In this document: positions 48,477-53,485 of the stretch, one piece after another
Numbering within the stretch: position 1 is the stretch's first letter
Layout: each line of letters begins with the position of its first letter
DNA from: Caenorhabditis elegans
Lineage: Eukaryota; Nematoda; Chromadorea; Rhabditida; Rhabditidae
Length of the DNA stretch: 64,000 nucleotides
Assembly: GCF_000002985.6 (NCBI RefSeq)
Contig: NC_003280.10
Coordinates: forward strand, 14,752,501-14,816,500
Direction of reading: 5' to 3'
Notes under the pieces: model-generated
Told to the model about the DNA's origin: nothing
Database searches by the model: none
Seen by the model: only the letters and a program-made list of their open reading frames with translations
Program-made: the position numbers and the translations under genes

Positions 48477-51400
48477 TCAACCAGTTTTCGTCTTTTTCGA
48501 AGCAGACACCATCACAACAGGACTTGGCTCGAAATTTCGAGATTCGATGACTTCTCGAATGGTGGAGACGATGCCGAGGATTTTTGCTGAAAAAAAAACG
48601 AATTTTCAGTTTGAATCAAGCGAAATTCCAAAAAATTCATTGATCGTGGTGGGACCCGAGCTAAAGCAAGAAGGCGTGCGCCTTTAAAGAACTACGGTAA
48701 AAATTTAATTCTATTAAAAATCGATTTCGCAATTCGATTTTTTATTTTTCTTGTAGCCGAGGATAGCCAAAAATTCAACAAAGTGGTTAAAAATAAATAC
48801 TAAATTCTAAAAATAGGAATGAATTCTCAAAATGAACTGAAAAATGCAAAACAGGAACGGTCAAGTTGGTGCCGATGGGAGGGGGGGTTTCAAAGGTAAC
48901 CCACCGACTCCGGACCACGCCTGTCTGACATGAACGCATTGCAGAGGGGTATATATACTTGCTGCCTTCCGTGCGTCCGACTTTTCTAGAAGAATTGCAG
49001 TTCGGTAGAGCGCGCTTGTATTCTTATTGTGGCCCCTTCTCAGACAAACGCTTAGTAGCTTAATTAGATTTCAACCATATTAAACGAGATTTCAACCATA
49101 TTTGTTTAGAAAATCCATATTGCATTATATTTGCTCCATATTAGATTAGAAATCCATGTTAGATTAGATTTCCTCCATATTTCATTAGAAAACAAATCTA
49201 ATCCAATATGGTCGAAATCTAATCCAATATGGCACGCTCTCAGCCATATTTGATTAGATTTCGTCCATGTTAGATTAGAAATCTCACGAGAAATGGGAGT
49301 ATTAAAATAAATAAATAAATAAGAAGAAAACGGAAAGTGCAAACGCGTAGGGCTTAAAATTTTTAAATTAAAATTGAAGACCTTTAAAAAGTTTTAAAAT
49401 AAAATTATGATATGAAAATAAGAATTATCTCCTGCAAATAATAATCTAAAGATGATGTCCGCTGACTGACTTTGACGAATCTCCGAAAAGTCTCCAACTG
49501 GTAATGTTTTTTTCAGAAACACTTTTTTTTTCAAAATCCGGCAAGAAATTTCACGGCTACAGCTGTGACAACTTCGATGGTTACAAACAACGAAATAACA
49601 TATTCTATTAATTTAAATTAACTCCTACAAACCATTACTTTTTTCGGTATAATTCGTGGAAAAATTATATCATTTCACACAAATGATACTAGAGCTCTTG
49701 CTGCGGAAAGCGGAAACAGTCAATACCGTACTTTTAAAGTTTTCATGAATTTTGTATTTTACGTCTGTTTTGTGCCAACCCGCAGACCATAGTTAAATAA
49801 AATTACTTTTCCTAGCATTTACATTTTGATACAAAATACTTTAATTCACACTTCCAGCAACCAAAAAGTATGATTTAACGATTTTTTTTTAGAAAAAACT
49901 CTTTTCCAAATTTTCTGAAACTAAAAAAATCTTTGTTCTCTTCTATTGGTTAGTACGATTGGAGGCTAAGATTAATGAAAGCGGTTAACAAACTTTTTCA
50001 AATGAAAAACCTTGATATCAAGCCGTTCAAGACTTCAAAATACATTCCCTCTACTCACTAGTCAGTTCATCTAATTTTCCTTAACTTATCGAAGAAACAA
50101 CGCGCGCTACCACCACCAGCTATTTAACCGAACAGTTCATCGAAAGTTCATGTGTGCAGATTGGCCGAGTCGGTAAGAACACAGTCTTTAGAATATAACA
50201 TCCTGGATCGATTCCCCACAGTGGCAACTTCAGAAAGACACAGTAGCAGTGTTGATAGAGCGGCTACAGTTATTAGGCGAGACAGCCAGTGTGTAGTGTA
50301 AGATATATGCGAGACATGAGAAATATTTTTCTCATTTTCTTTATTTTTTCCACATTATTTTCGGGTGAAATATTCTTCGAAAAAAAATTATTCAGAAAAT
50401 CCGAGCCAAATTTGATTAGATTTTGTCCATATTGGATTAGATTTGTTCCATATTCGATTAGATTTCGTCCATATTGGATTAGAATTGTTCCATATTGGAT
50501 TAGATTCCGGCCATATTGGATTAGATTTGTTCCACATTGGATTAGATTTCAACCATATTTGATTAGAAAATCCATATTGGATTAGAATAGGAAGCCTATT
50601 AATTATGTCCCCATTATATTTGCTCAGTTTCTAATCAAATATGGTTGAAATCTAATTAAGCTACTAAGCGTTTGTCTGAGTTACCATAAGTTGCCGCAAG
50701 CACCGGAATCCGGGTCGAAAGGCACATTGACATGAAGATTAGACGGAAAAGACGAAGATCCCAGTGAATAAGTCTGAAATTATGGAATTTTGGTGTAAAA
50801 AATCCAAAATTTTCAAGACTAACGATGACAAGAACGATTCGCCGGTGACAAAAACTGCGTAGACGGTCCAGTAGCGAACGAAGAAATCTTGATGATTCTT
50901 GAGGAAGCTCGGATTTTCATAGGAAGACGTGGAAGAGATCGCGGTGACTGTCATGAACGTTGGGATGATAAGGGTCTGAAAAATTTGCGAGGATTTTGAG
51001 ATCGATGACGTCACAACGGTTTATATTTTTTTAGTTCCACAAATTTTTTGTATCGAATTTCGAATTCACCGCTTTTTTTACCCCTGTGCCCCAATTTTCT
51101 AGAGCTCCGTCCAAGTTTTGAAATTTCCGGGATTACTGTAGTATAAAAAGTACGTGTTTGCGTACTCTTCAAAATTGCGCTCAAAATAGCTTTTAAAAAA
51201 TGATTTCAACGGAGCACACTTGCATACCATAAACGCTGTGATCGCTCCCACTGCATCATTCAGAAGTACAAGAGTGAGTAAAACACCCAGAGCTCCATAG
51301 AAACAATGCTCCCTTCTTCTCCCGAAAACCCGCTCAATTTCTCGAAATCTGAAAAATTCCATTTTTATCAATGGAGCGTCGTTGCATTCTCACAGCAATT

Positions 51401-51751
51401 CATAGCTATGCGGTTCGTAGAGCACGTTGCACACGAGGATATTCAATTTTACAAGATCCACGTCATCCCACGAGTTCATCAGCTTCTTTTGTTGGATTAC
51501 TGTAAAAGTGGAAAGTACGCTCCAATGAGAAAGTAGATCAAACCTGGCTTCGGATCACTCTTCGCGTTAGACGTCAGATAACTGGCCAAAGTAGATAAAA
51601 AACCGGATTTTTTGACATCGGACGCTAGCGATATCGGAGCCGTGTTCTAAAATTTACAAAAACTTGGGCCTTGCAAGGCGCTCCCCCGACAAATCCTCAC
51701 ATTTTCGAGATAGAACGAACGTTCTTGGTTGATAACCTCCGCTTGAGACAT
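48477..51751 (-). CDS. Divergent REEP/TB2-DP1-HVA22-like membrane protein
   Basis: Seven exons on the minus strand: 51751-51701, 51646-51544, 51499-51394, 51348-51228, 50975-50824, 50773-50685 and 48586-48477, all phase-consistent, 243 aa. The N-terminal ~100 residues are soluble. Then come hydrophobic hairpins (GALGVLLTLVLLNDAVGAI, FMTLIIPTFMTVTAISS) and the REEP-like segment FFVRYWTVYAVFVTGESFLS, followed by LFRLIFMSMCLS. REEP/Yop1 proteins insert as hairpins and shape ER tubules; the assignment here is by pattern and is moderate. Without the last exon the frame would run on into a transposon end and stop at 50656 with the tail NSDKRLVA. The donor at 50684 and the exon at 48586 give a better C-terminus (KILGIVSTIREVIESRNF). 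The 2.1-kb last intron contains a TIR transposon and a Y-RNA-like gene. The gene is convergent with tbc-20. Confidence 0.68.
48848..48925 (-). ncRNA. Y-RNA / stem-bulge-RNA-like gene, copy 1
   Basis: On the minus strand the 5' arm CAGGCGTGGTC pairs with 3' GACCGTTCCTG (one mismatch plus wobbles), followed by TTTT. Inside it lies GGTCCGGAGTCGGTGGGTTACC opposite ACTTGACC, leaving one bulged C. This is the conserved Ro60-binding helix of vertebrate Y RNAs, and also of the nematode CeY and stem-bulge RNAs. The loop is rich in C (seven in a row). A TATATATACC box (48957-48948) lies about 32-34 nt upstream of the RNA 5' end, and a GTCGGACG element (PSE-like) starts 25 nt before the box. The predicted RNA is about 78 nt. 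It lies in the last intron of the REEP-like gene on the same strand but has its own promoter signals. It could correspond to CeY (yrn-1) or an sbRNA; I cannot tell which. Confidence 0.72.
48948..48981 (-). promoter_or_regulatory. PSE-like element plus TATA box of Y-like RNA copy 1
   Basis: On the minus strand AGTCGGACG is followed by TATATATACCCC with the same 25-nt offset seen at the two plus-strand copies. The intervening bases are unrelated to those of the other copies. Confidence 0.65.
49100..49290. repeat. Degenerate CCATATTNGATTAGATT units, left block
   Basis: About eight units in both orientations (also AATCTAATCCAATATGG), part of the TIR transposon. Confidence 0.75.
50155..50225 (+). 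other. tRNA-like sequence inside the TIR transposon
   Basis: TTGGCCGAGTCGGTAAGA resembles the A box of a Ser/Leu-type tRNA, and GGATCGATTCC resembles a B box, about 40 nt apart. A full cloverleaf is not evident. Confidence 0.4.
50400..50600 (+). repeat. Degenerate CCATATTGGATTAGATT units, right block
   Basis: About nine tandem 18-20-bp units with changes mainly in the few bases before CCATATT. Confidence 0.8.
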
Positions 51752-51925
51752 GCTAACCGATCAAATTTCGATTATAGACGCGAAGTTTCTTTGTGTTCAA
51801 ATTCAAAATAATTGGAAAATTGGAATTTCACATTTTTTCGTTTTAATTTTTATTTTTGAAAGGTTAAATTGAGAAAATAATCCGAGGACACGCGAAAATT
51901 GCAACCACCGCCATTCCTCGAAAAA

Positions 51926-51960
51926 TGTCGGCCGCCTGTCAGAAAGTGTGTATATATACC
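51926..51960 (+). promoter_or_regulatory. PSE-like element plus TATA box of Y-like RNA copy 2
   Basis: TGTCGGCCG at 51926 and TATATATACC at 51951. The same pair with the same 25-nt offset precedes the other two copies (52239/52264 on plus; 48981/48957 on minus, where the element reads AGTCGGACG). The sequence between the two boxes differs in the three copies while the spacing is fixed. That is the usual layout of a snRNA-type Pol III promoter. Confidence 0.7.
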
Positions 51961-51981
51961 CCCCGACGCAACACAATTCCG

Positions 51982-52058
51982 ACCACCGGTCCGGAGTTTG
52001 TGGGTTACCAAAATTGTCATTTGAATCCCCCCATAGACATCCCTTGACCGGGGGTTTT
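51982..52058 (+). ncRNA. Y-RNA / stem-bulge-RNA-like gene, copy 2
   Basis: The 5' arm ACCACCGGTC pairs with 3' GACCGGGGGT (one mismatch), followed by TTTTT at 52055-52059. A bulged C follows (GGTCCGGAG against CTTGACC), then an upper helix GTTTGTGGG with CCCATAGAC that pairs fully, counting wobbles. GTGGGTTACC is shared with copy 1. This is the Y-RNA architecture: terminal stem, bulged-C Ro site, pyrimidine-rich loop, T-run end. Upstream are TGTCGGCCG at 51926 and TATATATACC at 51951-51960, exactly 25 nt apart start to start, as in copies 1 and 3. Predicted length about 77 nt. Pol III type 3 transcription is inferred from the PSE/TATA layout and the T run. It is divergent from the REEP-like gene. 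Confidence 0.75.
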
Positions 52059-52238
52059 TGCAATTTCATTTATTTTTCCTGAAAAGTTGATATTTCCAGT
52101 CTTTTTAGTGTTCCCAAGTATTTCGAAACATGTGTTCTATAGAAAATCGATTATGAGGGGAAGGGGGTATGTACACCCTTTCACTCCTTTTCTGTGACGT
52201 CACAAACAGCCTCTACCAACACACCATTCCTCAAGAAG

Positions 52239-52273
52239 TGTCTGCCGTTTCTATCGCTGCGAGTATATATACC
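52239..52273 (+). promoter_or_regulatory. PSE-like element plus TATA box of Y-like RNA copy 3
   Basis: TGTCTGCCG followed 25 nt later by TATATATACC; the predicted RNA 5' end is about 30 nt after the TATA start. The layout matches the other two copies. Confidence 0.65.
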
Positions 52274-52292
52274 CCCGGTCGCCATTGGTTTG

Positions 52293-52375
52293 TGGCCGTC
52301 CGGGTCTGGCGTTTATGGGTTATCCAATTTCTTGAATCCATCTCCCACAGACACCTCCTTGACCGGGAAGGTTTT
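52293..52375 (+). ncRNA. Y-RNA / stem-bulge-RNA-like gene, copy 3
   Basis: The sequence GGCCGTCCGGGTCTGG with downstream CGTTTATGGGTTATCC aligns to copy 2, and the 3' end CTCCTTGACCGGGAAGG pairs with the 5' arm through GGTC/GACC, a G-G mismatch and CC/GG pairs. TTTTT follows at 52372-52376. The bulged residue of the Ro-type helix is T here rather than C, and the first bases differ, so this is the most diverged copy. It may be an sbRNA rather than a true Y RNA. TGTCTGCCG starts at 52239 and TATATATACC at 52264, again 25 nt apart. It lies about 310 bp downstream of copy 2 in the same orientation, so the pair looks like a tandem duplication. Confidence 0.66.
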
Positions 52376-53485
52376 TGCAAAATCGGAATCGTAATTTCGC
52401 GACTAACTTTTTAAAAATAATTGCATTCCTTCCAGAACACTGTTCAGGCAAAAAAAAATTCTCAACAATTTTTTTTAAAATTTTTAAAAAGAATTACAAC
52501 GTGGTGTCAGAGTGTCCCATTTCAGCTTGATCTACCTAGTTCTACAAAAAATGCGGGAAAAAAAGACGCAGAGTTCTCAACTGATTTTGCATGGTTAAGA
52601 ACGTGCTGACGTCACATTTTTTGGGAAAATAATTTCCCGCGTTTTTTGTAGATCAAACCTTAATGGGACAGCCTGGCACCACGTGAACAGTTCTCAGTGA
52701 AGTTCTTCTCCGCAAGAAAAGTTAATATTATCAACCATCAAGTAGGTCACAAGCAGGTCCCCATTGGTCGCAAAACAATGCAAACCAGTTAATCTTGTTC
52801 AATTATTTGATTTTCATTTTTCTTCTTTCCTATGCCATGAAGAAACATGCATGCGGATGATACCTCAAGAAGACCTATTCATACCTGGCAAATTGTATTA
52901 TTGTAAGCTGAAGTGAACGGGATCAAAGTTGAAGAGACTCTGCTCAAGATGCTGTATTATTTTAATATAAGATCAATCTAAGATCTTAACGATAACATGG
53001 AGGCGCCCGATTGCCTACTCTCAAACTAATATTTTATTCACTACTGTAAGAAAGCCGTCGTACAATAACTCTATAACCCCCAGTTGAGCAAGGATTTTAA
53101 TTGCTTCTTGTTGATTTTTGTGATAATATTTTTTTGCAATAAAAGTATTCAGAGCTCGATGTTGTGCCACTATTTGGAAACAGCCTTTAAAAAATTTCAT
53201 ACACACTTTTTTTCTAGTTTAAATTAGCAAACTGCATCTGACATAATTGATCTTTCAAATTACATCCATTTCATTGAGAAGCCCCTGTCAGCATATGAGT
53301 AATTGTTTTGCCCGTCCGTCACCTGTTTCAAGGAATTAAAGCAAAAATATTCCCATTGGGATTATATAGTGACTGTTTAGGAAACGTTCAAACAACATTT
53401 ACTTTAATATATTATTGGCGCGTGATTTGGGAACATACGATAATTTTCTAATTTTTATTGGAATTCCTAATCTATTCTTGTGAAG
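52376..53485. other. Gap between Y-like RNA copy 3 and the srt receptor
   Basis: Contains the foldback 52498-52686. The rest is unique AT-rich sequence with no supported gene, and presumably includes the srt promoter. Confidence 0.5.
52498..52686. repeat. Foldback repeat
   Basis: CGTGGTGTCAGAGTGTCCCA on the left mirrors TGGGACAGCCTGGCACCACG on the right; GATCTAC, CTACAAAAAATGCGGGAA and GTTCT are also mirrored. Confidence 0.75.

Follow-up and report, generated by a model that had tools for sequence, protein, structure and literature searches.

A stretch of 64,000 nt of Caenorhabditis elegans chromosome II (G000:C2:14752501-14816500; hereafter, the window, in whose positions the features below are given) contains three genes for stem-bulge RNAs (sbRNAs), known as CeN76, Ce1 and Ce2. 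The sbRNAs were reportedly described by Deng in 2006 and by Boria in 2010, as is said in papers that cite them. CeN76 lies on the reverse strand at 48848-48926 and comprises a bulged lower stem, an upper stem, the loop motif GGGTTACC, a C-run loop and a T-run terminator; it was delimited with the Rfam model RF01656, published primers and the T run, its 5′ end being placed by the primer match. On the forward strand, Ce1 (51980-52059) and Ce2 (52293-52376), each ending in a T-run terminator, are defined by RF01656 and a primer pair. An earlier note on this DNA had described a cluster of three: the three loci are real and lie at the coordinates given there, but they are arranged as a tandem pair, Ce1 and Ce2, whose starts are 313 bp apart, and a distant CeN76, about 3 kb off on the opposite strand.

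At gathering scores, cmscan of the window returned two matches, both to RF01656 (ceN72-3_ceN74-2; cut-off 38 bits): CeN76 with 57.8 bits (48854-48922) and Ce1 with 39.7 bits (51982-52054). Ce2 was matched at a looser threshold (52297-52369). Scanning the window with a 5′-arm pattern (up to six mismatches) and a promoter pattern (up to three) yielded these three places only. Published work is cited below by PMC number. The methods of PMC8477234 give primers for quantitative reverse-transcription PCR (qRT-PCR) of 18 sbRNAs and of yrn-1 (CeY), and both primers of the respective pair match exactly at CeN76 (48852-48926), Ce1 (51980-52055) and Ce2 (52293-52372); the primers are identical letter for letter, and we found no difference between the loci and the sbRNAs of these names. 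Because the loci match stem-bulge RNAs that are already named and already measured, the proposal of the earlier note is correct but not new: these are genuine small-RNA genes whose promoter is of a standard kind, and nothing about them is new in kind. We put at about 96% the probability that they are the known genes CeN76, Ce1 and Ce2, each an independent RNA polymerase III (Pol III) unit with a promoter of the UM3 type, sharing the role in replication attributed to sbRNAs as a class.

Structure and promoters of the three genes

The structural elements recur in all three genes. In CeN76, GGTCCGGAGTCGGTGGGTTACC occupies 48916-48895, CTTGACC starts from 48865 and the T run extends to 48848; in Ce1, GGTCCGG is found at 51988, CTTGACC at 52043 and the T run reaches 52059; in Ce2, the corresponding GGTCTGG is at 52303, CTTGACC at 52358 and the T run ends at 52376. 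The lower stem with its bulged C, i.e., GGTC(C) against TTGACC, is aligned in 18 of 18 sbRNAs (columns 6-13 with 135-146 of the alignment), and the upper stem has the UG-CA core and GC clamp, with T20-A128 paired in all 18 and G21-C127 in 17, Ce7 being the exception. The loop motif UUA(U/C)C reads TTACC in CeN76 and Ce1 and TTATC in Ce2. The bulged helix, loop motif and T run claimed for the three loci are thus all present, but the C-rich loop, plain in CeN76 and Ce1, is weak in Ce2.

For a count of covariation, we aligned the 18 RNAs and transferred the RF01656 structure by hand onto the alignment columns. Standard pairs fill 91.7% of 338 cells as against 82.9% in shuffles (none of 500 as high), 33 cells are changed on both sides as against 9.8 (0/500), and nine of 19 pairs show a two-sided change as against 5.4 (4/500), counts that do not represent independent events because the rows are paralogues. 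When the partner is shifted by one to three columns, pairing falls to 28-54%. The stem is conserved with compensatory changes across the 18 paralogues. In single-sequence folding, only Ce1 folds better than its shuffles (z = -2.26), so the structure rests on comparison and not on energy.

Upstream of each gene stands a proximal sequence element (PSE)-like motif followed by a TATA box. In CeN76, the former is AGTCGGACGC (48973-48982, reverse strand; GTC at 48981), which corresponds to the PSEB of UM3, and the TATA box TATATATACC lies at 48948-48957, its start 25 nt past that of WGTC. On the forward strand, Ce1 has TGTCGGCCGC at 51926-51935 (GTC at 51927) with TATATATACC at 51951-51960, and Ce2 has TGTCTGCCGT at 52239-52248 (GTC at 52240) with TATATATACC at 52264-52273. 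In each of the three, WGTC and the TATA box start 25 nt apart, as the earlier note had reported. Genome searches, here and below, covered 100,286,401 bases in seven contigs; the pattern GTCKGMCG-N16-TATATATA has three matches in these 100.3 Mb, all at the present loci, and none in the reversed control. Between loci, the TATA box is identical at 10 of 10 positions and PSEB at six to eight of 10, and the filler agrees at four, five and six of 13 positions in the three pairwise comparisons. When the 300-base upstream flanks were compared, the Ce1/Ce2 score was reached by six of 200 single-letter shuffles and the Ce1/CeN76 score by 15; neither the Ce2/CeN76 upstream flanks nor any of the three downstream comparisons rose above shuffles. 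CeN76, Ce1 and Ce2 are old paralogues in which the promoter elements were kept. As a separate observation, CeN76 (L006; AAGCGCGCTCTACCGAA) and CeN135 (L014; AAGTGCGCTCCATTGAA) have similar sequences some 30 bases ahead of the PSE, which are perhaps an upstream element.

The promoter found here is the published UM3, a form of the worm PSE-plus-TATA Pol III promoter. UM3 is described as PSEB plus GTATA without PSEA, confined to sbRNA loci whose transcription terminates at a T run (PMC2527325). The three loci likewise have a PSEB-like element and a GTATA box at fixed upstream spacing, lack the PSEA of U6 and carry a T run downstream, and the earlier assignment to Pol III agrees with that description. 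The wider set of sbRNA promoter columns is also in keeping with it: U6-like genes have an AACCC-GAG-like stretch before GTC, whereas sbRNAs instead have T at -13 (16/18) and -12 (17/18) and A at -4 (16/18) and -3 (15/18). The three loci differ from most of the family in carrying TATATATAC, as 13 of the 18 sbRNAs have other letters after TATATA or have TATA-like cores. Promoter activity of UM3 has been demonstrated on CeN74-2 and CeN72; in CeN74-2, mutation of PSEB left 49% of expression and mutation of GTATA 79%, while the double mutation nearly abolished it (PMC2527325). SNAPc would presumably bind, and Pol III occupy, the three promoters described here; accessions of embryo chromatin immunoprecipitation datasets for Pol III and TBP are given in PMC6950938.

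The spacing and the sbRNA family across the genome

The promoter geometry had been singled out as identical in the three loci, which it is; however, it is not peculiar to them, being common to other PSE-plus-TATA Pol III genes. With a simple scan, GTC precedes a TATA-like core by 24 nt in 16 of the 18 sbRNAs, the exceptions being CeN73-b, with GTT at that place, and CeN72, which gave 22 nt with the core allowed. In PSE-aligned columns, all 18 have the T and A, and each of the remaining TATATA letters is found in 17 or 18; the CeN72 box is degenerate in the aligned register (TACATA). The same register is kept in CeY, RNase P, RNase MRP and tRNA-Sec (TTTATA in the last). CeY and RNase MRP are independent of the spacing because they were fetched by RNA sequence and by a variable-gap pattern, respectively; RNase P was found with both variable and fixed gap, and tRNA-Sec and four U6 genes were selected by the fixed gap. 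With GTCNGNNGC-N{8,18}-GTATATA, 21 genome matches were obtained, 14 with the gap that the three genes have and seven distributed over ten other gaps, against five in the reversed control. The fixed gap with one mismatch allowed gave 29 matches (two in the control), consisting of 14 sbRNAs, six other Rfam genes (four U6, RNase P and tRNA-Sec) and nine places without an Rfam hit; the sbRNAs missed were Ce7, CeN71, CeN135 and CeN72.

The U6 and tRNA-Sec matches of the fixed-gap search are not independent proof of the spacing, and the U6 family was therefore examined without that condition. The genome search with RF00026, in which 48 of 13,288 candidates were scored, found 29 places, 24 of them over the cut-off and four of these already seen with the fixed gap. 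Eleven of the other 20 (L078-L080, L082-L087, L089 and L090) have GTC and, 24 nt on, a TATATA or TTTATA/TATAAA core. On visual inspection, the spacing is also kept in L077, L081 and L088, where a single letter of GTC or TATATA is altered, and in six (L091-L096) no GTC/TATA pair was seen. In sum, 15 of 24 U6 loci have the exact geometry, a figure that rises to 18 when a single altered letter is tolerated, and six are without it; the latter, which include an overlapping pair on opposite strands (L093 and L094), may be pseudogenes.

The genome search with RF01656 gave 18 places, of which 16 reach the cut-off. The total of 18 agrees with the published count of sbRNAs when CeY is left aside: PMC8477234 gives CeY plus 18 sbRNAs, and PMC4450293 a family of 19 members with CeY included. 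Only 41 of 2319 candidates were scored in this search, so a more diverged copy may exist. Both primers match at these loci for 14 of the 18 sbRNA pairs; for CeN73-1, CeN73-2 and CeN74-1, the forward primer alone matches and for CeN74-2 neither does, and because of these failures the four remaining loci were named by elimination. The 5′-arm pattern with up to three mismatches returned 20 places, i.e., the 18 RF01656 places plus L036 and L037, which we rejected as further sbRNAs, their printed sequences having neither a CTTGAC arm nor the promoter. CeY was missed by both genome searches, RF01656 and 5′-arm pattern (up to three mismatches).

Five sbRNAs, CeN76, Ce1, Ce2, CeN135 and CeN71, are all located on chromosome II and have GTATATATAC in common, which occurs in none of the other 13. 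In a comparison that is post hoc and involves few loci, the box TATATATAC is present in these five and in none of the 13 others, TTGCA occurs in the 35 bases sampled around the gene end in five of five as against one of 13 (CeN77), and the TATA-to-stem distance is 37-41 nt as against 34-38 nt (Ce7, 49 nt). Among sbRNAs, published levels are highest for three of the five, CeN76, CeN135 and Ce1 (PMC4450293). That the chromosome II five form a promoter and terminator sub-class, maybe regulated apart from other sbRNAs, is a tentative idea that we consider unlikely.

Two further places in the genome have promoters of this general kind. At L052 (1476-1530; G000:C5:16292523), a U6-like promoter (CACGAGAT, PSEB and TATA at 24 nt) has no Rfam RNA behind it. 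At L053 (1290-1530, minus strand; G000:C6:11623413-11623653; C6:11623624), a UM3-type promoter with 24-nt spacing is followed, as judged by eye, by the U6-like start GTTCACATCAGAACATATACC, and the first long T run comes about 150 nt further on (TTTTTTGCAATTTT). L053 is single-copy in the genome, has no Rfam match below E = 0.7 and folds no better than shuffles (z = -0.14); its identification as a 7SK-like RNA was considered but could not be demonstrated. To judge from its sequence, L053 is possibly a Pol III RNA gene.

Between CeN76 and Ce1, the window contains an insertion-like element (49039-50680) with perfect 43-bp terminal inverted repeats (49039-49081/50638-50680) and, inside, repeats of ATTAGATTT/CCATATT. 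In the genome, 33 bases of its end match at 31 places (up to three mismatches), which often form pairs in opposite orientation separated by a few hundred to about 1800 bases, and the element looks like a member of a non-autonomous DNA transposon family. Inside it, at about 50150-50230, stretches resembling the A box and B box of a tRNA were seen by eye (TGGCCGAGTCGGT ... GGATCGATTCC); ARAGORN (bacterial setting) and Rfam at gathering scores found no tRNA in the window.

Alternative readings, expression and replication

The closest alternative is that the three loci are Ro60-binding Y RNAs proper, acting like CeY in RNA quality control with ROP-1, and the earlier note had hinted at Ro60 binding. 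They share with vertebrate Y RNAs the bulged lower stem, which is what Ro60 recognises, the UG-CA core of the upper stem and a UUAYC-type loop motif, and a gel shift showed binding of ROP-1 by a different sbRNA, CeN72 (PMC4726728). Yet, under the vertebrate Y RNA model RF00019 (cut-off likewise 38 bits), Ce1 scored 23.9 bits and CeN76 19.7, and no row for Ce2 appeared up to E = 10. The whole-genome search with RF00019, in which the control likewise matched nowhere, gave no match and carries no weight. According to PMC4726728, a review, ROP-1 immunoprecipitates from worms contained CeY, while the other 17 or 18 sbRNAs were all absent. CeY itself resembles them in its PSE-to-TATA spacing and in the AAAT-GTC junction found in many sbRNAs, but has a different upper stem, binds ROP-1 and is without replication activity in vitro (PMC4450293, PMC4726728). 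ROP-1 binding by CeN76, Ce1 and Ce2 is hence not supported, and we regard them as very unlikely to be Y RNAs in this sense.

Less probable still are pseudogenes or very recent duplicates with a merely inherited promoter, for which speak the tandem position of Ce1 and Ce2 and the upstream flank scores above most shuffles (Ce1/Ce2 and, slightly, Ce1/CeN76). Recent duplication fails to account for the shared geometry because the fillers differ, the flanks are at or slightly above shuffle level and the spacing is fixed across paralogues, which bears out the preference of the earlier note for constraint; moreover, stem pairing is kept through two-sided changes, and expression has been published (qRT-PCR, PMC4450293), unless the signals come from other paralogues. 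That chance inverted repeats lie next to TATA-rich DNA finds a footing in nothing but the modest energies with which CeN76 and Ce2 fold, and is refuted by the promoter matches absent from the reversed control, by the Rfam matches and by the exact published primers.

Several points weigh against our reading of the loci as sbRNA genes under UM3 control with a part in replication. The RF01656 score of Ce2, 37.7 bits, falls 0.3 bits short of the cut-off; CeN76 (z = -1.04) and Ce2 (z = -0.28) fold no better than shuffles as single sequences; the polymerase specificity of UM3 is only inferred in its source paper, as far as cited here (PMC2527325); and the sections of PMC4450293 drawn upon do not state that CeN76, Ce1 or Ce2 was among the nine sbRNAs tested for replication. 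The same study, which followed 18 sbRNAs by qRT-PCR, reports the highest levels for CeY, CeN76, CeN135 and Ce1, and a share of Ce2 that declines during development.

As an sbRNA gene, each locus would have its start site set by a TATA box and, at a fixed distance from it, a SNAPc-type PSE (the PSEB half); Pol III would transcribe some 75-85 nt and end at the T run, and the RNA would form a lower stem in which a cytosine is bulged, an upper stem carrying the UG-CA core and a loop starting with UUAYC. The upper stem and loop motif would then aid the initiation of DNA replication, redundantly with other paralogues, as published for sbRNAs as a class. Of nine sbRNAs assayed in a human cell-free system, six restored the initiation of replication, and morpholinos against CeN77, CeN135 and CeN74-2 caused embryonic lethality (PMC4450293); an essential, replication-linked role of sbRNAs is thus already in the literature, and we infer such activity for CeN76, Ce1 and Ce2 in particular.

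The analysis adds little new biology, as known non-coding RNA genes and their promoter geometry were re-derived from raw sequence. Other Pol III genes of type 3 in this genome have the same distance between PSE and TATA box, which is therefore usable as a filter for such genes. The sbRNAs themselves matter in that they extend the replication role of Y RNAs to invertebrates.

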